Assembly (NCBI GenBank): GCA_944322325.1
Contig: CALUOQ010000005.1
Span: forward strand, 103,871 to 167,870
From: an uncultured Alloprevotella sp.
GTDB taxonomy: Bacteria > Bacteroidota > Bacteroidia > Bacteroidales > Bacteroidaceae
Direction of reading: 5' to 3'
Length of the DNA: 64,000 nt
Positions 4,321 to 64,000 of this stretch are shown here, piece after piece; positions within the stretch are counted from its first letter, which is position 1, and each line of letters begins with the position of its first letter. The position numbers and the translations under genes are program-made. Below the pieces are notes generated by a model. That model was given only the letters and a program-made list of their open reading frames with translations, was not told the DNA's origin and made no database searches.

Positions 4321-5778
4321 ATGGTAAACACTAAAATCAACGCCAGCATCCTCGCTTCGCTGCTCTACCTCGAAGCGGTTCTCATGGTTGCCTGCGTCGG
4401 CGTAGGGCTCTACTACGGCGAGCGCGACTTCTCTGCTTTCGTGCTGCCCATGTGCATCGCCGTCGTCCTGGGCAGCCTCCTGAAGTTCTACAGCCGCGGT
4501 GCCAATCGCCACATGAGCCGCCGGGACGGCTACCTCATCGTTTCGATCACCTGGGTCGTATTCACGGCCGTCGGCATGCTTCCCCTGCTCGTCGGCGGGT
4601 ACGAGACGCGCGTCGCAGCCGCCTTCTTCGAAATCATGTCGGGCTTCACCACCACGGGTGCCACCGTGCTTACGAACATCGACAGCCTGCCGCCGTCCAT
4701 TTTGTTCTGGCGAAGCCTGACGCACTGGATGGGCGGTATGGGCATCGTATTCTTCACCATCGCCGTCCTGCCGACCATGGGCACGGGCGACCTGAAGCTC
4801 TTCTCGGCCGAAGCCACGGGCATGAAGCTCGGCAAGCTCCATCCGCGCATCCGCACGACGGCGCAATGGCTCTGGGCCATCTACCTCACACTCACCGTGA
4901 GCTGTGCCCTCGCGCTCTGGCTGGCGGGCATGTCGCCCTTTGACGCGGTGAACCACGCCATGTCCACGGCGGCCACGGGCGGCTTCTCGACGCACCAGGA
5001 CGGCATTGCCTGGTTTCAATCGAGCGCCGTAGAGTACGTCGAACTGGCTTTCATGTTTCTGGCCAGCATCAACTTCACCCTACTCTACCTGCTCCTCATC
5101 AAGGGCCGGCTGCGCAGCGTGCTGCGCGACGGCGAACTGCGCTGCTTCGTGCTGCTGTGCGTCGGTGCGTCGGCGTTCATCGCGGCCTCGCTCGTCGTCT
5201 GTCAGGGCTACCCCCTCGAACGGGCCCTGCGCGAGGCGGCCTTCCATGTCGTGTCGTGCCAGTCAACCACGGGATTCATTGCCTTCGATTTTCGCGAGTG
5301 GCCGGCGTTCACACTGCCCGTCATGCTGTTCATCATGGCCGTAGGTGCCTGTGCCGGTTCGACTACGGGCGGCTTCAAGTGCGTCCGCCTGCTCACGCTG
5401 GCCCGGCTGGCGCGCAGCGAGTTCAAGCACATCCTCCATCCACGCGCCATGTTGCCCGTCCGCATCGACGGCACCACGTTGACCAGCCAAGTAGTCCGCA
5501 CGCTCACCGCTTTCACGGCGCTCTACCTCCTGCTCCACATCGTGTCCACCTTTATCCTCGTCTGGACGGGCCTGCCCTTCCTCGACGCGCTGGCGGTCAG
5601 CATTTCCTCGTTCAGCAATGTCGGTCCGGCCTTCGGCCAACTCTTCAGCCCGCTCGACGCGTGGAACAGTCTTTCCGACGTGGGATTGTGGACGTGCTCC
5701 TTCATGATGTTGGCGGGCCGCCTCGAAATTTTCTCCCTCCTGCTGCCTCTTTTCCCCAGCTTCTGGCGCGAGAATTAG
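4321..5778 (+). CDS. trkH: Trk/Ktr-type potassium channel subunit TrkH
   Basis: This is a 485-residue integral membrane protein with about ten hydrophobic segments. The four selectivity-filter-like loops of the SKT superfamily are visible: SGFTTTGATVL, STAATGGFSTH, SCQSTTGFIAFD and SSFSNVGPAFG. It forms the potassium-conducting pore that TrkA gates. The frame is open from 4219 inside trkA, but the ATG at 4321, just after trkA, gives a proper N-terminal membrane segment and is preferred. Confidence 0.95.
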   Translation: MVNTKINASILASLLYLEAVLMVACVGVGLYYGERDFSAFVLPMCIAVVLGSLLKFYSRGANRHMSRRDGYLIVSITWVVFTAVGMLPLLVGGYETRVAAAFFEIMSGFTTTGATVLTNIDSLPPSILFWRSLTHWMGGMGIVFFTIAVLPTMGTGDLKLFSAEATGMKLGKLHPRIRTTAQWLWAIYLTLTVSCALALWLAGMSPFDAVNHAMSTAATGGFSTHQDGIAWFQSSAVEYVELAFMFLASINFTLLYLLLIKGRLRSVLRDGELRCFVLLCVGASAFIAASLVVCQGYPLERALREAAFHVVSCQSTTGFIAFDFREWPAFTLPVMLFIMAVGACAGSTTGGFKCVRLLTLARLARSEFKHILHPRAMLPVRIDGTTLTSQVVRTLTAFTALYLLLHIVSTFILVWTGLPFLDALAVSISSFSNVGPAFGQLFSPLDAWNSLSDVGLWTCSFMMLAGRLEIFSLLLPLFPSFWREN

Positions 5779-6618: not shown

Positions 6619-6698
6619 ACAAGTGTAGTCCCAGGAAAAACGATCGCTACGATAGAAATTTCTATCGCTACGACAGGAAAAACGGGGACAGCACTTGT
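6619..6698. repeat. Palindromic repeat element, long form (80 nt)
   Basis: The element runs from ACAAGTGTAGTCC to AGCACTTGT. Its centre is the palindrome ATAGAAATTTCTAT, flanked on each side by CGCTACGA and AGGAAAAACG-type blocks, so it mixes inverted and direct symmetry. Ends and core match the elements at 15695, 24301 and 48117. It lies in the predicted leader of the DUF2807 cluster. Confidence 0.8.
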
Positions 6699-15683: not shown

Positions 15684-17597
15684 ATGCGAAAACGAAGTGT
15701 AGTCCTGCTATTTTCTATCGCTGCGATAGTAAAAACTATCGCAGCGCCCATTGATTCTATCGTAGCACTTGTTCAGGCCCTCACTTTCCTGCGCACGACG
15801 CAGCCTGCCACGCGCACCCTCGCGTCCGACGACGTCCGTCCCTTCGCTGCCGGCCGGGCCGCCTATGGCTTCGCCGCCACCGACGGGCGCTTCGTCCTCG
15901 TCGCTGCGGACGACCGCCTGCCCTACGTGCTCGGCTACGGCCGGACGGGCGACACCCTGCCGCCCGCTCTCGACGGACTGCTGCGCCTCTACGAGCGCCA
16001 GCTGGCCACACCGCCCGCCGCCCGGGCTGCCGAGGCCCGCACCACGCGCCCCGTGGCCCCCTTGCTGCGCTCCGTACGCCACCAGCGCGACCCCTTCAAC
16101 CGCTCCTGCCCCTACTACATCGACGACGCAGGCCAGCCCTCGGCCACGCGTTGCGTCGTGGGCTGCGTGGCCACGGCCTTGGAGCAGGTGCTGACCTACT
16201 ACCGGCAGCCCGCCGTGCTGGCCGACACCGTCTTCGCCCACTCCTCGGCACACTTCACCACCACGGACGTCGCGCCCGGCACCCCCATCGACTGGCCACA
16301 CATTCTCGACGTCTACGCCGAGGGGCAATACTCCGACGCCGAGGCCCGCGCCGTGGCCGACCTGTCACTCTGGTGCGGCCAGATGGCGCAGATGGACTGG
16401 GGCACGCGCGAGTCGGGCGCCTACGTGAACCGCCTGGCCGCACCCGTCAGCCGCTCGCTCGGCTACGGCTACGTTCACTACGCCGACAGTTACCAGTATC
16501 GCCCCGACGAGTGGATGGACATGCTCTTGGCGGAAATCCAGGGCGGACGCCCCGTCGTCTACGCCGGCGGCATCTACGCCCAGAGCGCCCATGCCTTCGT
16601 GCTCGACGGCGTCGACGCCGAGGGACGCTTCCATGTCAATTGGGGCTACGGCGGAGCGTACGACGGCTACTTCCGGCTGGACGTCCTCAACCCCTTCGAC
16701 CCCACCGCGACGGGCGGCACGGTGGGCCAGGCGCAAGGCTTCTTCTGCAACCAGGAAGCCCTGCTGCTCCATCCCGCCGCGCTCGACGTCCGCCTGCCCG
16801 ACACGCTCGGCCGTACCGGGCAGGAGCTGCGCCTGACGTCGCTACAATTCGAGCGCCGGCCCGACCTCAACGACGCCGTCGCCGTCCGTCTCGGCCTGCA
16901 CAATACGTGCGACGCGCCGCTCACGACGACCCTCGCCCTCGTCACCTACGCCCCCGACGCCGCCGAGCCGCTCGAGGAGGCCGAAGTGCTCGGTTACACC
17001 GCCGTGCGCCTCGCCGCCGGACAGGACTCCGTCGCCACGGCCTACGCCCGCTTCCAGACACCGGGCCAGCGCGTCTTTGCCCTCACGGCCGACGGCGCAA
17101 GCACCTTCTACACGCAAGCCCTGCGCGTCGACTCGACGGCCGCGGCTCTCCTCACGGTGACCTCCATCACGGCCCATGCCGAGCCCGACCGCGTCCGGGC
17201 CGACATCACCTTCCACAACGCCGCCACGGCCGGATGGGCCGGCGACATGCCCACCTTCAGCCTCTTCGAGGGCGACTATTCCACCGCCGACGGCGAACCG
17301 CGCCGCTACGCCCACCTGAACCTGGCTCCCGGCGCCGACACCGTGGTCACCGTCTGTTTCGACGGGCTACGCCCCGCCACGCGCTACACCCTCTGCGTGC
17401 GCCTCGACTGGCTCCCCGACGCGCAGTACGCCTTCACTACGCCGGCCGCCACCGGCATTGCGTCCCCTCCGGCCGACGCCGGGCCTGTGCGCTGGCTCAC
17501 CCCGGACGGCCGGCCCGTCGCCCGCCCCAACCGGCCCGGTGTCTACCTTCGCCAGCGCGGCCGCGAGGTGCATAAGGTGACCTGGCCCGTCCGCTGA
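15684..17597 (+). CDS. C10 (streptopain-like) cysteine protease with T9SS-like tail
   Basis: This 637-residue predicted exported protease belongs to family C10 (SpeB/streptopain, interpain). The catalytic Cys161 lies in RCVVGCVATALEQVL, His303 in SAHAFVLDGVD, and the Trp motif follows as NWGYGGAYDGYF. A prodomain occupies residues about 30-140. Beta-rich domains follow the protease, and the C-terminus GRPVARPNRPGVYLRQRG resembles a T9SS type A sorting signal. Residues 4-30, including the hydrophobic signal sequence, are encoded by a copy of the dispersed palindromic repeat, which is very unusual. It follows the desulfidase-like gene by 16 nt. Confidence 0.92.
   Translation: MRKRSVVLLFSIAAIVKTIAAPIDSIVALVQALTFLRTTQPATRTLASDDVRPFAAGRAAYGFAATDGRFVLVAADDRLPYVLGYGRTGDTLPPALDGLLRLYERQLATPPAARAAEARTTRPVAPLLRSVRHQRDPFNRSCPYYIDDAGQPSATRCVVGCVATALEQVLTYYRQPAVLADTVFAHSSAHFTTTDVAPGTPIDWPHILDVYAEGQYSDAEARAVADLSLWCGQMAQMDWGTRESGAYVNRLAAPVSRSLGYGYVHYADSYQYRPDEWMDMLLAEIQGGRPVVYAGGIYAQSAHAFVLDGVDAEGRFHVNWGYGGAYDGYFRLDVLNPFDPTATGGTVGQAQGFFCNQEALLLHPAALDVRLPDTLGRTGQELRLTSLQFERRPDLNDAVAVRLGLHNTCDAPLTTTLALVTYAPDAAEPLEEAEVLGYTAVRLAAGQDSVATAYARFQTPGQRVFALTADGASTFYTQALRVDSTAAALLTVTSITAHAEPDRVRADITFHNAATAGWAGDMPTFSLFEGDYSTADGEPRRYAHLNLAPGADTVVTVCFDGLRPATRYTLCVRLDWLPDAQYAFTTPAATGIASPPADAGPVRWLTPDGRPVARPNRPGVYLRQRGREVHKVTWPVR
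15695..15772. repeat. Palindromic repeat element inside the C10 protease gene
   Basis: This 78-nt copy begins AAGTGTAGTCC and ends AGCACTTGT, the same ends as the element at 6619. Inside is a perfect 12-bp inverted repeat, CGCTGCGATAGT with ACTATCGCAGCG, separated by AAAA. The length is a multiple of three, and the copy is read in frame as residues 4-30 of the protease precursor. Confidence 0.8.
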
Positions 17598-22087: not shown

Positions 22088-24283
22088 ATGGAACCGAACC
22101 GTAAAACCGACACTTTCCCCGTCATGGGGATGCACTGCGCCGCTTGTGCGCACAACGTCGAGCGCATGTTGCTCGGCGTCGACGGCGTGGCGGCGGCCAC
22201 CGTCAACCTCGCCGCGGCCACGGTGGCCGTTGACTACGACCCTGCCCGCGCCACGCCCGAGGCGATGAAGGCCGCCGTGGGCCGCGCCGGCTTCGGCCTC
22301 ATCACCGAGGACCCCGACACCGCCGAGCGCCAGAAAGCCGAAGCCGAACGACGCTACCGCCGCTCGCTGTCGCGCCGCTGCATGGTGGCATGGTGCCTCA
22401 CCGCGCCGCTAATGGCCGTCATGCTGCTCGCCCACACCGCGTGGACCGACTGGCTGGCCCTCGCGCTCACCCTACCCCTGCTCGCCTATTCCACCTGGCC
22501 CTTCTTCACGGCCGCCGTGCGCGCCGCACGGGCCGGGCAGACCAACATGGACACCCTCGTCGCCGTGAGCACGGGCATTGCCTTCCTCTTCAGCCTGGCG
22601 GGCACGCTCCTGCCCGACGCCTGGACCGCACGCGGCCTCACCCCGCCCTGCTACTACGAGGCGACGGCCATGATCACGGCCTTTGTCCTGACGGGAAAAG
22701 TCATGGAGGAACGCGCCAAGCACCGCACGGGCGAAGCCATCCGCGCCCTGATGGGCCTGCAGCCCCGCACGGCGCGCGTCGTGCTGCCCGACGGCACCGA
22801 GGCCGACCGCCCGCTGGCCGTACTGGCCAAGGGCGACCGCATCCGTGTCCGCCCGGGCGAACAGGTGGCCGTCGACGGCCGCGTCCTCGACGGAACGTCC
22901 GCCGTCGACGAAAGCATGATCAGCGGTGAGCCCTTGGCCGTGGAGAAAGCCGCGGGCGACGCCGTGCTGGCCGGCACGGTCAACGGTCGCGGCACCCTGC
23001 TGGTCGAGGCGCGCGAGGTGGGCGCCACCACCGTGCTGGCCGGCATCGTCAAGGCCGTGCACGACGCCCAAGGCTCCAAGGCCCCCGTCGAGCGCATCGT
23101 GGACCGCGTCACGGCCGTGTTCGTCCCCGTCGTGCTGGGGCTGGCGCTGCTCACGTTCATCGTGTGGCTGGCCGTCGGCGGATGGGACGCCCTGCCGCGC
23201 GCTGTGCTCTCGGCGGTGTCCGTCACGGTCATTGCCTGCCCCTGCGCCCTCGGGCTGGCCACACCGACAGCCCTCATGGTGGGCATCGGCCGCGGCGCCC
23301 AAGCCCACATCTACATAAAGGACGCCGTCGCCCTCGAACAGCTGCGCCGCGTGGACACCGTGGTGCTTGACAAGACCGGCACCGTCACCGAGGGCCGGCC
23401 CGAGGTAGTAAGCCGCCACGACGAGCCCGGCCTGACGCCTGCCGACCTGGCCCTGCTGCGCGCCATGGAACAACGTTCCGAACACCCCACGGCCGAGGCC
23501 GTCGCCGCAAGCCTGACCGACGTCAGCGCCCCCGCCCCGGCCATCGAAGCCTTCGAAAGCCTCACCGGGCGGGGCATACGCGCCACGGCGGCCGGCGCCG
23601 TCTACTGGGCCGGCAACGAGCGGCTGGCCGCCGACATGGGCTGTCCCGTCGCCGTGCCCGACGCCGACGGACTCACCCACGTATTCTTCGGCCGCGGCGA
23701 GCACCTACTCGCCCGCTTTGCCATAGGCGACCGCGTGAAGCCCCACTCGGCCGAAGCCGTCGGCCGCCTGCACCGCATGGGCCGACAGGTGGTGCTGCTG
23801 ACGGGCGACAACGCCGCGTCGGCGGCCGCCGTCTGCCGCGCGACGGGCATCGACCACTACGAAGCCGGCCTGCTGCCTGCCGACAAGGAGGCCGCCGTGC
23901 GACGGATGCAGGCCGAGGGCCGCGTCGTCGCCATGGCGGGCGACGGCATCAACGACTCGCAGGCCCTGGCCGCCGCCGACATCTCCGTGGCCATGGGCCG
24001 CGGTACGGACATCGCCCGCTCCGTTGCCCAGCTCACCCTCATGACGTCCGACCTGCGCCTCCTGCCACAGGCCATCCGCCTCTCGGAGCGCACCGTCGGC
24101 ACCATTCGGCGCAACCTCTTCTGGGCGTGCATCTACAACGCCGTCGGTATTCCCCTGGCCGCCGGCGCGCTCTATCCCCTGTGGGGCCTGACGCTCACGC
24201 CCGCCGTCTCGGCCGCCTGCATGGCTTTCTCGTCTGTCTCGGTAGTGACCAGCAGCCTCCTACTGGCCCGCGGCCGGCTCTGA
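22088..24283 (+). CDS. copA: Copper-transporting P1B-type ATPase
   Basis: This 731-residue inner-membrane pump has one N-terminal heavy-metal domain with GMHCAAC (Cys17, Cys20), the membrane CPC motif at 384-386 ([12 protein letters not shown]), and the phosphorylation site DKTGT with Asp428. The SEHPTAEAV nucleotide-domain motif, [10 protein letters not shown] hinge and membrane residues YN ([11 protein letters not shown]) and MAFSSVSVV near the end are typical of Cu(I) transporters (P1B-1). It exports copper from the cytoplasm. The frame extends upstream to 21986, but the HMA domain and promoter favour 22088. A perfect palindromic repeat lies 17 nt after the stop. Confidence 0.95.
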
Positions 24284-24300
24284 GCGCTGCCTTCGTAAAA

Positions 24301-24359
24301 ACAAGTACTACGCCAGGAATTTCTATCGCAGCGATAGAAATTCCTGGCGTAGTACTTGT
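24301..24359. repeat. Palindromic repeat element, 59 nt, perfect
   Basis: Two 29-nt arms are exact reverse complements around a single central base. The left arm starts ACAAGTACTACGCCAGGAAT and ends TTCTATCGC. RNA from either strand would fold into one long hairpin. It begins 17 nt after the copA stop. No T-tract follows, so it is not a standard terminator, but it could protect the copA 3' end. Confidence 0.9.
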
Positions 24360-24486
24360 GCTGACTATCTCCTGCGACTGACATCATGACATCACCGCAC
24401 GCTCTCCCCGACGCTACGCCTGTCCACGCCTGAAGCACAGGAGATAAAATTCCCGGCAGGACACCTTTTCTTCAAAAAACTTTCCA

Positions 24487-24494
24487 TAATTTTG
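24487..24494 (+). promoter_or_regulatory. Bacteroidetes -7 box for the T9SS protein gene
   Basis: TAATTTTG fits TAnnTTTG and would give a leader of about 105 nt before the start at 24608. Confidence 0.5.
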
Positions 24495-24607
24495 CCTTAG
24501 AAACAATTTGAAGCACCACTGCCAGTCTTTTCTCCCCCGCCGAAAACAGGAAACGGCGTACCGCGACAATAAACAGATTCACACACTCTGACAAATCCAA
24601 GAATACG

Positions 24608-48116: not shown

Positions 48117-48175
48117 ACAAGTGCTGCGCCAGAAATTCCTAAGACTACGATAGGAATTTCTGGCGCAGCACTTGT
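48117..48175. repeat. Palindromic repeat element, 59 nt
   Basis: Two perfectly complementary 25-nt arms (starting ACAAGTGCTGCGCCAGAAAT) surround a 9-nt centre. Total length and ends equal the element at 24301. On the minus strand it begins exactly 17 nt after the relA/spoT stop, the same distance as the other copy from copA. Confidence 0.9.
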
Positions 48176-48192: not shown

Positions 48193-50445
48193 TCAGTCGA
48201 CGCGAATAACCTTAATGACGTTCTCGATGTGCTTGAGCGAATTGCAGATGTTGCGTACGTCGTCCGTATCGTGCACACAGACGACGATGCGGCCCTCGAA
48301 GATTCCATCGTTCGTCTCGAGGTTGATTTGCTTGACTTCGATACTCAACTGTGTGTGTATCACGTCGGCGATGGAGCACAACATACCTTGTGTATCGATG
48401 CCCTTGATGTAAATTGTCGTGGTGAAGTAAAGCACACGATGCGTGTCCCACTGCGTAGCTATGATACGGTTGCCGTAACTGCTCTTGAGCTTGTTGGCCA
48501 CTTCGCAGTTGCGCTTGTGGATGGTGAGCACATTCTTGGCGTCGATGTAGCCCAAAGTATCGTCGCCGGGGATGGGGTGACAACATTGGGCCAGCTGGCA
48601 CTTCGTGAGGTTTTCCTCGTTGAGCATGAGGGTCTTCTTGCGATCTATTCCTTTGACAAAGGCTTGCGCCAGGTTGTTAGTGTGAAGCGTGGAGCGACCG
48701 TTCATGAAAGGGATGTAGCGCCGCCAGCCTTGCGAGGGGTGGCGTCCGCGCAGACAATTGACATCGCTGTCGTCAGGAACGATTTTCTTTTCACCGATAG
48801 CCAGCAACAACTCTTCGCGGCTGGCCAAGCCGTGCAGATGAACCAGTTTCTCGATATTGGCGGGGCTGTATTCGAGGTCCTTGCCCTCCAGGAAAGCTTT
48901 AAGCGTCTGTTCGCCATCGTGCTGTAGCTCGCGGTCGACCCGGCGCAGGATGGCCATGATTTTCCCTTTGGCCTTGGCCGTATTGGCGTAACCTATCCAT
49001 TCGCGCTGGACGTGCTGCGAACGCGAAGTGAGGATTTCGACCTGGTCGCCGCTCTTGAGACGGTGGTTGAGCGGCACGAGCTTGTGATTGACCTTTGCGC
49101 CGATGCAATGGCTCCCTAAGAATGAGTGTATTGAAAAGGCGAAGTCGAGTGCCGTAGAGTTAGCCGGCATCGTCTTGATTTCCCCTTTGGGCGTAAAGAC
49201 CAGTATCTCGGAAGCAAAGAGGTTCAGCTTGATGGCATCGAGGAAGTCGAGCGTATCGGGCTGGGGGTCGTCGAGGATCTCCTTGATGGAGTTGAGCCAG
49301 CGGTTGAGCTCGTTGTCGTCGTATTCGGCGGAACCGTCCTTGTACTTCCAGTGGGCGGCAAAACCTTGCTCGGCGATGTCGTCCATGCGGTCGGAGCGAA
49401 TCTGCACCTCTATCCACTCGCCGTGATGGCTCATCAGTGTCACGTGGAGCGCCTGGTAACCATTGGCCTTCGGGTGGCTGAGCCAGTCGCGCAGACGATC
49501 GGGATGGGGCTTATAGATCTGGGACAACGCGACATAGATATTAAAGCACTCGTTGATTTCCTCCTCGCGCTTAAGCGGAGTAAAGACGATGCGGATAGCG
49601 AGGATGTCATAGATTTCCTCAAAAGTGACGTGCTTCTTCTGCATCTTGTTCCAGATGGAATAAGGGCTTTTGACACGTGCTTTGATGGTGTACTTGAGTC
49701 CCATGCGGTCGAGCTCGGCACGAATGGGCGGCGTGAAATCGTCGAAAATAGCGTCGCGCTCGCGCTGGGTCTTGGCCAGCTTTTCCTCAATGGCCTTATA
49801 CTCCTCGGGATGTTCGTACTTGAAACTCAGATCCTCGAGCTCTGTCTTGATTTTGTTGAGCCCGAGACGGTCAGCCAAGGGTGCGTAGATATAAAGCGTC
49901 TCGCCGGCAATCTTGTATTGCTTGTTGGGCGCCATGCTCGACAGGGTTCGCATGTTGTGCAGGCGGTCCGAAATTTTGATGAGAATGACGCGGATGTCGT
50001 CACTCATCGTAAGCAGCAGTTTCTTAAAGGTCTCGGCTTGCAGCGAAGCGCGGTCGCCGAAGATGCCGCCGGCAATCTTCGTGAGGCCTTCGACAATGTT
50101 GGCCACCTTGGGACCAAAAAGATTGCTGATGTCTTCGTTGGTGTAGTCGGTGTCCTCTTCGACATCGTGAAGCAGTGCGGCGCAAATCGAGGTAGACCCC
50201 AGACCGATTTCGCCGCACGCTATCTGCGCCACGGCGATGGGGTGCAGGATATAAGGCTCGCCGGAAAGGCGGCGAACGCCTTTGTGCGCCTGCTTGGCGA
50301 AGTGGAACGCTTTCGTGATGACGTCCACCTTGCGGCGGTGGTTGGAAGCCAAGTACGTATCCAGCAGCTTCTGGAACGCAGCATTAATCATCTCTTCGTC
50401 CTTCTGCTCCTGCGGCGTCAGTGTTTTCGTGTTTGTGTCTTCCAT
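48193..50445 (-). CDS. RelA/SpoT-family (p)ppGpp synthetase/hydrolase
   Basis: This 750-residue Rel protein makes and degrades the stringent-response alarmone. The N-terminal hydrolase domain has HDVEEDT at residues 93-99, so hydrolase activity is expected. The synthetase domain has RVKSPYSIWNKMQKK and GYQALHVTLM. TGS (VFTPKGEIKTMPANSTALDFAF), helical and C-terminal ACT (IDTQGMLCSIADVI) regulatory domains follow. It is the last gene of the parA-parB-DUF5683-lytic transglycosylase block, 40 nt after the transglycosylase gene. Confidence 0.95.
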   Translation of the reverse strand: MEDTNTKTLTPQEQKDEEMINAAFQKLLDTYLASNHRRKVDVITKAFHFAKQAHKGVRRLSGEPYILHPIAVAQIACGEIGLGSTSICAALLHDVEEDTDYTNEDISNLFGPKVANIVEGLTKIAGGIFGDRASLQAETFKKLLLTMSDDIRVILIKISDRLHNMRTLSSMAPNKQYKIAGETLYIYAPLADRLGLNKIKTELEDLSFKYEHPEEYKAIEEKLAKTQRERDAIFDDFTPPIRAELDRMGLKYTIKARVKSPYSIWNKMQKKHVTFEEIYDILAIRIVFTPLKREEEINECFNIYVALSQIYKPHPDRLRDWLSHPKANGYQALHVTLMSHHGEWIEVQIRSDRMDDIAEQGFAAHWKYKDGSAEYDDNELNRWLNSIKEILDDPQPDTLDFLDAIKLNLFASEILVFTPKGEIKTMPANSTALDFAFSIHSFLGSHCIGAKVNHKLVPLNHRLKSGDQVEILTSRSQHVQREWIGYANTAKAKGKIMAILRRVDRELQHDGEQTLKAFLEGKDLEYSPANIEKLVHLHGLASREELLLAIGEKKIVPDDSDVNCLRGRHPSQGWRRYIPFMNGRSTLHTNNLAQAFVKGIDRKKTLMLNEENLTKCQLAQCCHPIPGDDTLGYIDAKNVLTIHKRNCEVANKLKSSYGNRIIATQWDTHRVLYFTTTIYIKGIDTQGMLCSIADVIHTQLSIEVKQINLETNDGIFEGRIVVCVHDTDDVRNICNSLKHIENVIKVIRVD

Positions 50446-63023: not shown

Positions 63024-63845
63024 ATGGTAAACAGAGTTTTCGCACGGATAACGCGCGCCGCTCTGCTGAGTGCTTCTTTGTTCCTCACGGGCTGTGAAGT
63101 GATTGAATATCACCCCTACGACACGCGCATCAGCGGCGAGACGGACCTCAACCGCCGCAACATGGAGCGCATCGAGGCCGAGTGTCTCGGACGCGATACC
63201 ATCCGCTTTGCCGTCATCAGCGACACGCAGCGCTGGTACGACGAAACGCGCGCCGCCATCGACGCCATCAATGCCCGCGACAGCATTGACTTCGTCATCC
63301 ACTGCGGCGACCAGGCCGACTTCGGTCTGACGCGCGAATTCGAGTGGATGCGCGACGAACTGCTGCGCCTGCACGCCCCCTTCGTCTGCCTGCTGGGCAA
63401 TCACGACTGCCTCGGGACGGGCACCGACGTCTACCGCACCATCTACGGCACACCCAACTTCGCCTTCGACGCCGGTCCCGTGCATTTCCTCTGCCTCAAT
63501 ACGAACGCCTTCGAGTACGACTACTCCGTGCCCATCCCCGATTTTTCCTTCATCAGCGCCGACCGCGACGCCCTGCCCGCCACGACGCGGCGCACCGTCG
63601 TGGCGATGCACGCCCAGCCCTTCAGCGAACAGTTCAATAACAACGTGGCCGAGCTCTTCCAAGGTGAACTGCACAAGTACCCCGGGCTGGCCTTCTGCCT
63701 GAGCGGTCACGGCCACACCACCCAAGCCGTGGACCTCTACGGCGACGGTATATATTATTATGAGTGCACTTCGGCCAAAGGGCGGGAGTACTTGTTGTTC
63801 ACCCTGTCGGCACAAGGAATGACGTATGAAGCCATCCCGTACTAA
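63024..63845 (+). CDS. Calcineurin-like metallophosphoesterase lipoprotein
   Basis: This 273-residue predicted lipoprotein starts MVNRVFARITRAALLSASLF followed by LTGC, with Cys24 lipidated. The metallophosphoesterase core shows FAVISDTQRWYD, HCGDQADFGLTREFEWM, LLGNHDCLG, VVAMHAQPF and LSGHGHTTQA, which supply the Asp, Asn and His ligands of the dimetal site. It probably faces the periplasm or surface; the substrate is unknown. A TTG at 63003 would be an alternative start without a better signal. The next ORF overlaps its end by 20 nt. Confidence 0.9.
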   Translation: MVNRVFARITRAALLSASLFLTGCEVIEYHPYDTRISGETDLNRRNMERIEAECLGRDTIRFAVISDTQRWYDETRAAIDAINARDSIDFVIHCGDQADFGLTREFEWMRDELLRLHAPFVCLLGNHDCLGTGTDVYRTIYGTPNFAFDAGPVHFLCLNTNAFEYDYSVPIPDFSFISADRDALPATTRRTVVAMHAQPFSEQFNNNVAELFQGELHKYPGLAFCLSGHGHTTQAVDLYGDGIYYYECTSAKGREYLLFTLSAQGMTYEAIPY

Positions 63846-64000
63846 ACTGCTGGCCGCCCTCGCCCTCGCCCTGCCCCCGGCCGCGACGACCGTTGCGGCC
63901 GGAAATCCTGTCGCAGCGATAGAAAATCCTGTCGCAGCGATAGAAAATCCTGTCGCAGCGATAGAAAATCCTGTCGCAGCGATAGAAAATCCTGTCGCAG
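63826..64000 (+). CDS. Exported (NPVAAIE)n repeat protein, 5' part
   Basis: An ATG within the end of the phosphoesterase gene opens a frame that reaches the window edge without a stop. It starts MKPSRTKLLAALALALPPAA followed by TTVAAG, a plausible signal peptide, with an AAGGA ribosome-binding-like sequence 9 nt upstream. Then comes a run of the heptapeptide NPVAAIE, encoded by exact 21-nt repeats. The full length cannot be seen. It could be a surface or secreted repeat protein, or a non-coding satellite that happens to be open in this frame; the signal peptide and overlap favour coding. The repeat unit nearly equals half of the dispersed palindrome. Confidence 0.55.
   Translation, partial: MKPSRTKLLAALALALPPAATTVAAGNPVAAIENPVAAIENPVAAIENPVAAIENPVA
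63903..64000. repeat. 21-bp perfect tandem repeat, cut by the window edge
   Basis: Four complete identical units of AAATCCTGTCGCAGCGATAG plus A, and 14 nt of a fifth, are visible. The unit differs at one position from the stretch TCGCAGCGATAGAAATTCCT of the palindrome at 24301. It is a direct repeat with no spacers, so it is not a CRISPR array. Confidence 0.95.

Follow-up and report, generated by a model that had tools for sequence, protein, structure and literature searches.

Introduction

RAYT transposases account for extragenic mosaic repeats of the REP/REPIN kind. REPs and REPINs are high-copy extragenic palindromes placed approximately at random over extragenic space (Bertels and Rainey, 2011, PMC3116915; Di Nocera, 2013, PMC3733652), and BIMEs are extragenic mosaics in which palindromic units alternate in orientation (PMC3733652; PMC2817692). 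Also considered here are the neisserial intergenic mosaic elements (NIME), whose dRS3 unit is ATTCCC-N8-GGGAAT (20 bp; PMC3898611), the Rickettsia palindromic elements (RPE), which are about 150 bp long and lie in genes in nearly half of cases (PMC10969869), and quasipalindrome correction by template switching, in which the arms of an inverted repeat are matched in one step (PMC8794818; PMC7202029).

The repeats described here were met in a 64,000-nt stretch of DNA, analysed whole and referred to as the window. They resemble BIME, NIME and RPE in parts and are members of none of these by the features tested. No described family in this genus was found in the literature, in which subscription papers were thinly covered.

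Elements in the window

The four palindromic copies listed by the initial annotation were present where it had placed them. They are given here with a tandem array and the neighbouring genes.

6619..6698: 80-nt element of four words (59 + 21)
15684..17597, + strand: Peptidase_C10 gene with Inhibitor_I69 propeptide, host of the coding element
15695..15772: 78-nt element, in frame within the open reading frame of the peptidase C10 family protein
22088..24283, + strand: P-type ATPase gene, immediately upstream of the 24301 element; query for the closest named relative
24301..24359: 59-nt element, ACAAGTACTACGCCAG / GAATTT / CTATCGCAGCGATAG / AAATTC / inverted outer word
48117..48175: 59-nt element, ACAAGTGCTGCGCCAG / AAATTC / CTAAGACTACGATAG / GAATTT / inverted outer word
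48193..50445, - strand: RelA/SpoT-type gene beside the 48117 element; basis of the genus tree and of the site comparison
63908..64000, + strand: tandem run of the 21-nt unit CTGTCGCAGCGATAGAAAATC, up to the window end, which is the end of contig C5 (167,870 bases)

The 24301 element consists, as had been claimed for one copy, of two perfect 29-bp inverted arms around a 1-nt centre. The 48117 element has perfect arms of 25 bp and a 9-nt centre, starts 17 bp past the end of the RelA/SpoT-type gene and adjoins a separate GC-rich stem-loop with a T-run. Both longer elements are partly palindromic: 26 of 40 positions pair end to end in 6619-6698, and 15695-15772 folds mainly via an inner hairpin. 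All four copies gave much better folds than their dinucleotide shuffles did (z = -13.4, -13.7, -6.6 and -4.8; 0 of 200 shuffles as good for each copy). Only miRNA hairpin models, far below gathering score, were returned by Rfam for 24101-24560. In the 1.6 Mb of genome examined, the outer word ACAAGTACTACGCCAG was confined to the 24301 element, once per arm; ACAAGTGCTGCGCCAG was found on both 48117 arms and at one other site (C2 187733), and together with its spacer only at 48117. The fifth array, which runs from 63908 up to the end of the window, is tandem, with no ACAAGT end within the window, so that an ACAAGT-bounded palindrome is not the defining feature of these repeats.

Modular build and copy number

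The genome holding the window (G000), that of a gut bacterium, comprises 2,721,972 bp in 33 contigs and is 90.67% complete. Arrays were surveyed in 1,605,069 bp of it (59%) using seed words taken from early copies, and 141 arrays with at least two seed words were found, a count that misses divergent arrays because the seeds were words from early copies. Genome-wide, CTRTCGYWRCGAYAG was matched 169 times (reversed control 0), far from only a few copies, and RCTRCGAYAGRAWWTYCT gave 170 + 152 matches (control 0). The dispersed family proposed initially was thereby borne out, with hundreds of module copies in mosaic arrangement, mostly extragenic.

The palindrome is a special case; the real unit is a 21-bp module made of a 15-bp, roughly dyad-symmetric word (mostly CT-N11-AG) and a 6-bp A/T spacer. 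Modules are joined head-to-tail and head-to-head, in direct and inverted order; the array at C1 255678, for example, has three ACAAGTACTACGATAG units followed by CTATCGCAGCGATAG and CTGTCGCTGCGACAG. This build was first recognised by reading 30 loci, which included some chance matches to short patterns and several overlapping loci.

Spacing between modules was strictly phased. The AG-RAWWTY-CT junction occurred at 246 sites in 1.6 Mb of G000 (reversed motif 18), and all 90 junction pairs less than 130 bp apart lay at 21 (74 pairs), 42 (11), 63 (4) or 84 bp (1). A sister species, G030, had 48 junctions, and 14 of 14 such pairs were at 21 (9), 42 (4) or 63 bp (1). The reversed motif formed no pairs in G000 and G030, from just 18 and 3 sites, respectively. 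The commonest repeat lag was 21 in both genomes, with a count of 240 in G000 (other lags had a median of 9) and 47 in G030 (median 2). In 850,713 bp of G000, ACAAG-to-CTTGT distances peaked at 59 (31 cases) and 80 (27), and ACAAG was followed by ACAAG at a distance of 21 in 15 cases.

Element lengths of 59, 80 and 101 nt correspond to 17 + 21n; spans off register by one base were also recorded (eight of 81 nt, four of 102 nt), and one of the four 102-nt spans had no modules. Sixty-four elements of 59 nt (ACAAG-N49-CTTGT), some nested in longer arrays, were collected from the 1.6 Mb; 61 were distinct, three 59-mers occurring twice in identical form. Element length is not fixed and the ends vary: there are tandem arrays, and there are ends that lack ACAAGT.

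Pairing of the arms

According to the initial annotation, arms vary between copies and stay complementary within each copy. This held for the 59-mers, 41 of 64 of which had perfect outer 16-nt arms (mean 14.0, maximum 27 in 2000 shuffles of right arms), and less well for the longer copies; part of the excess in 59-mers is due to arms of one word class going together. Spacers were perfectly paired in 17 of 64 59-mers (shuffled 7.5, maximum 18). Core halves were not clearly coupled, being perfect in 20 of 64 (shuffled mean 12.0, maximum 24) with a mean pairing of 4.77 against 5.00 shuffled.

Rare words were then compared between arms. Six outer words were confined to one 59-mer each among the 64, and every one was present on both arms. 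Five of these 16-nt words occurred exactly twice in 1.6 Mb, as the two arms of their own element, and the sixth, that of 48117, had one further site. Another rare outer word was on one arm only (three occurrences in 1.6 Mb), and two were found in two 59-mers each, never on both arms of one element. Among 12-mers private to one array, inverted recurrence within the array was seen in 14 of 141 arrays and direct recurrence in 4 of 141; the same test on random genome segments, which are mostly coding and not a fair intergenic background, gave 3 inverted and 2 direct.

The simplest reading, moderately supported by these counts, is that words arose locally and were copied to the partner arm. Coupled arms are consistent with local hairpin-templated copying, and equally with selection for a paired hairpin; telling the two apart requires closely related strains.

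Distribution and words across the genus

Among the matches listed, the closest named relative by P-type ATPase was Candidatus Caccomonas pullistercoris, which at 79% identity ranked first of 80 loci, in a search from which the genome's own records were possibly left out. NCBI places this organism in Prevotellaceae; Candidatus Caccomonas corresponds to the GTDB genus CAG-617, Bacteroidaceae (PMC8035907), and from this we infer that G000 belongs to CAG-617. A Caccomonas contig (L090) was found by reading to carry a G030-type array downstream of the same P-type ATPase gene.

Twelve of 399 genomes of the family had RCTRCGAYAGRAWWTYCT matches: 322 in G000, 32 in G030 and one in each of ten others. 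ACAAGTACTACGAYAGAAAWTYCT had no match in GTDB r220 contigs, from which the window's own or near records were possibly left out. The RelA protein of G030 (86% complete) is 87% identical to that of G000, other full-length matches reaching at most 73%. Thirty-four arrays were found in 340,083 bp of G030, in contigs mostly picked for having matches, with words including CTGTCAGCCGGATAG, CTGTCACTGCGACAG and CTGTCAGTTATTTAG.

The junction pattern CAGRAWWTYCTG was counted in 58 genomes of the genus against a reversed control. Forward and reversed counts were 129/0 in G030, 64/0 in G366, 59/1 in G000, 57/0 in G019, 35/0 in G008, 21/0 in G024 and 18/3 in G440, and the remaining 51 genomes gave 0 to 15 with controls of up to 8. 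Modules of 15 + 6 bp were present at 4 of 4 loci read in each of G008, G019 and G366, with words unlike those of G000 (CTGCAGTGCTTGCAG and CTAAACGCCTTGCAG in G008 and G019; CTGTAACGCTTACAG and CTGTTTGGGCGACAG in G366). They were present at 0 of 4 loci read in G024, so the CAGRAWWTYCTG count alone is no proof of modules. G388 has 21-nt modules of TCGCCTTAGCCCCGT with an A/T spacer, and G424 has the word CGACTTGGGCGACTG; the CAG/CTG junction is not kept in either. By lag analysis the 21-nt signal was clear in G000, G030 and G388 and not outstanding in G366 and G315; a lag-42 signal in G388 came partly from coding repeats, and none of five lag-21 runs in G029 was module-like.

On a RelA tree of 30 rows, the deepest forks of which are weak, the carriers lie scattered among low-count species, as G000 with G030, G008 with G019, G366 with G424, and G388. 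The junction count is 64 in G366 and 2 in its near sister G424, which still has arrays, with changed words. One array is common to both with its surroundings (96% over 410 bp); in another shared intergenic region both have arrays, the words differ and the surroundings are unalignable. Taken together, these repeats form a genuine, large family of modular build, in which the grammar is conserved and the words are specific to each species.

Other repeats were seen in congeners. A dispersed segment of about 240 bp combines modules, a terminator-like GGGCCC hairpin and TTTGCATTTCG...TTGTATCTTTGC, which we take to be promoter-like; it was read in G424 (L350, L356, L357, L358 and L360), where it has dozens of matches, and in G366 (L297 18285-18560), and may be a short transcription unit present in many copies. 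A different intergenic repeat lies downstream of the relA-type gene in L188 and L199 (G366 and G315); its units (CCGGAACAT; CYGGRNWWT-like) are 9 nt long, a length that is once more divisible by three. In G366, L296 14806-17083 is a locus of approximately 100-bp repeats with CCACGTCAATGGACATGGC and GCCACGATACC; separately, about 30 matches in G424 were found for a 160-bp stretch of L299 (1156-1323).

Sites compared between G000 and G030

For the initial annotation, aligned orthologous sites could have shown independent origin of the copies; the alignment of G000 with G030 yielded both filled and empty sites. Of 34 G030 arrays, 11 had no flank in the examined G000 DNA and 23 had at least one. 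A G000 array lay within 250 bp of the flank for nine of these 23, and one more (C33 5061) was ambiguous; G030 arrays with empty counterpart sites in G000 were also found. Orthology of single intergenic arrays was considered and found no support, the nine pairs being unalignable by eye. The flanks of one G030 array (L076, on C76) match two distant places in G000, C1 55635 and C1 129988, each adjacent to an array, and arrays may be points of rearrangement.

Genomic placement and copies within genes

Genes were predicted with a hexamer-based finder (1180 genes, 83% coding). Twelve of the 141 arrays lay in predicted genes, 127 between two genes and 2 at the edges of examined stretches. The intergenic arrays comprised 44 in the -- class, 36 in -+ (divergent), 26 in ++ and 21 in +- (convergent), against 39.3, 37.6, 26.9 and 23.2 expected from intergenic length. 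No orientation bias was detected among the 127 (chi2 0.86, p = 0.83), which argues against a dedicated terminator or promoter role.

Eight of the 12 in-gene arrays were in the frame giving TSTT(T/I)(G/E)K-like peptides, and the hosts include DnaX, GcpE, an HPPK-GNAT protein and LysM proteins. A match in MnmA was judged to be probably due to chance because its RYRSARQ resembles native sequence. The gene at C123 6118 of G030 contains an in-frame array that its G000 orthologue (C4 53663) lacks. In the window, the 15695 copy encodes the hydrophobic signal-peptide region and the propeptide start of the peptidase C10 protein, with Inhibitor_I69 from residue 20. At the same codons, the orthologue in G030 carries module-like DNA in 21-nt phase (CTGTCGCCGCGACAG/GGATTT/CCGTCGCGGCTCCGG), and none was seen by eye at the peptidase C10 N-termini of G015 and G103; judged by these codons, the 15695 copy seems older than the split of G000 and G030. 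The window-end array, one of the two edge cases above, probably codes for protein as well: translation from the ATG at 63826 gives a signal-peptide-like start and then NPVAAIE heptads, with no stop before the contig end. Contig C5 ends inside this array.

Discussion

The initial annotation had compared these repeats with REP/BIME or MITE elements. The likeness to BIMEs stood; membership in REP/REPIN or MITE families was unsupported because neither a Y1 (RAYT) enzyme, a reverse transcriptase nor target duplications were found. REPs and REPINs share with this family inverted palindromic pairs that form hairpins, compensatory changes between arms, high copy number and extragenic placement (PMC3116915; PMC3733652), all of them features present here. 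They differ in that no RAYT was found in either carrier and in that the 21-bp modules form a chain in direct and inverted order and strict phase, where a REP doublet has a free spacer. Some words contain GTAG (ACAAGTGTAGTCCC), and no constant GTAG or CGTC tag was evident at array ends by inspection. The 15 + 6 module and its 21-bp phase likewise distinguish these arrays from BIMEs, with which they share the mosaic arrangement of palindromic units that alternate in orientation, and no relation to REP or RAYT was found. MITE-type terminal inverted repeats (ACAAGT...ACTTGT) are present on 59- and 80-nt elements and not on all arrays.

NIME/dRS3 repeats are alike in that a short unit, constant at its inverted ends and variable at its centre, recurs in intergenic mosaic arrays of hundreds of copies. 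Here the period is 21, modules abut directly, words differ between species and the sequence is another; in the arrays read, units were CT-N11-AG with an A/T spacer and not dRS3. RPEs, compared by description (PMC10969869), are palindromic repeats that lie between genes and in frame inside core-enzyme genes, as here; only 12 of 141 arrays are in predicted genes in this case, and the build is modular. Quasipalindrome correction would account for private words on both arms; it is a process and not a repeat family, and dispersal is unexplained by it alone.

The best explanation, to which we give about an even chance, is that these are extragenic modular mosaic repeats whose arms are kept complementary by hairpin-templated copying, with one dialect per species. 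Arrays would lengthen and shorten through 21-nt slippage or unequal exchange. Copying in place on a hairpin, by template switching between arms, would keep the arms complementary, a word mutated on one arm being copied onto the other. Within a species, new words would be copied from array to array and displace the old, leaving one dialect per species. Arrays could be seeded at new loci in either of two ways, by template switching where short A/T homologies exist or by an enzyme that recognises the conserved junction; template switching alone does not readily explain dispersal to more than 100 loci. Among the arrays analysed, none was caught in the act of moving or changing.

It is rather unlikely that these are non-autonomous elements, like REPINs or MITEs, mobilised in trans by a transposase that reads the ends or the junction and that is missing from the draft, lost or of another class. 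High copy number, bursts specific to species and REPIN-like inverted outer words all accord with such elements, as do the three identical 59-mer pairs and the empty G000 sites for G030 arrays, and a gene could be missed in assemblies of this completeness. The RAYT or IS transposase suggested by the initial annotation did not emerge, however: PF01797 (Y1_Tnp) had no match in G000 or G030 and was present in 4 of 8 other congeners tested (G029, G015, G440 and G008; ten genomes in all), an absence that is not final because G000 is 91% and G030 86% complete. No target duplication was found at the 64 elements (mean exact match 0.86 nt versus 0.70 shuffled, sd 0.14), the nine genes bracketed by two nearby elements were all ordinary, with no transposase among them, and the elements vary in length and ends.

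Whole-genome enzyme searches covered Y1_Tnp and RVT_1. A reverse-transcriptase origin (retron, DGR or group II intron) was rejected, RVT_1 having no match in G000, and so was a phage origin, for which one pattern was searched with no match in IMG/VR. In G029, hairpins of GCCCTGAAAGGGC and CCCAGGGC...GCCCTGGG flank a Y1_Tnp gene (C87 5015-5359; L287 at about 4800-5490), and similar hairpins occur at L288 2673-2880. The C87 locus probably represents a genuine RAYT/REP system within this genus and does not resemble the module repeats described here.

Less probable still, and in our judgement improbable, is a selected protein-binding array, in which a dimeric or nucleoid protein would read junctions on one helix face, for chromosome organisation or silencing, while words drift. 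Twenty-one base pairs make two helical turns, A/T tracts recur in helical phase, and the junction and 21-bp phase are constant in G000, G030, G008, G019 and G366 while the words change. Weighing against selection of this kind are the 64-to-2 difference in junction count between the near sisters G366 and G424, counts of at most 15 in 51 of 58 genomes and the G388 and G424 words without the CAG/CTG junction; no candidate binding protein was identified. Amplified bidirectional transcription terminators or stabilisers of mRNA 3' ends are very improbable. In their favour, the hairpins are very stable and often have an A-tract before and a T-tract after; against them, arrays are about as frequent between divergent genes as intergenic length predicts and not enriched between convergent ones, the 48117 copy sits beside its own separate GC-rich stem-loop with a T-run, and tandem unpaired arrays exist.

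Returning to hairpin-templated copying with one dialect per species, the family allows template switching to be tested against selection as the keeper of complementary arms. The 21-nt build recurs in congeners whose RelA differs from that of G000 by 27-33%, with the words replaced, and two repeat-rich genomes without a detected RAYT raise the question of what spreads such repeats. In-frame copies in core genes are cases of repeat DNA turned into protein linker and, once, into a signal peptide. We suggest, tentatively and with more doubt than confidence, that the grammar is fixed and the lexicon free, palindromic A/T junctions being held at a 21-bp phase while 11-bp word cores are replaced wholesale and in concert in each species. 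If so, a conserved DNA-binding or DNA-copying machine would read the junction and the phase while hairpin-templated copying lets the words drift, and these self-spreading arrays, for which no transposase is known, would constitute a new class.
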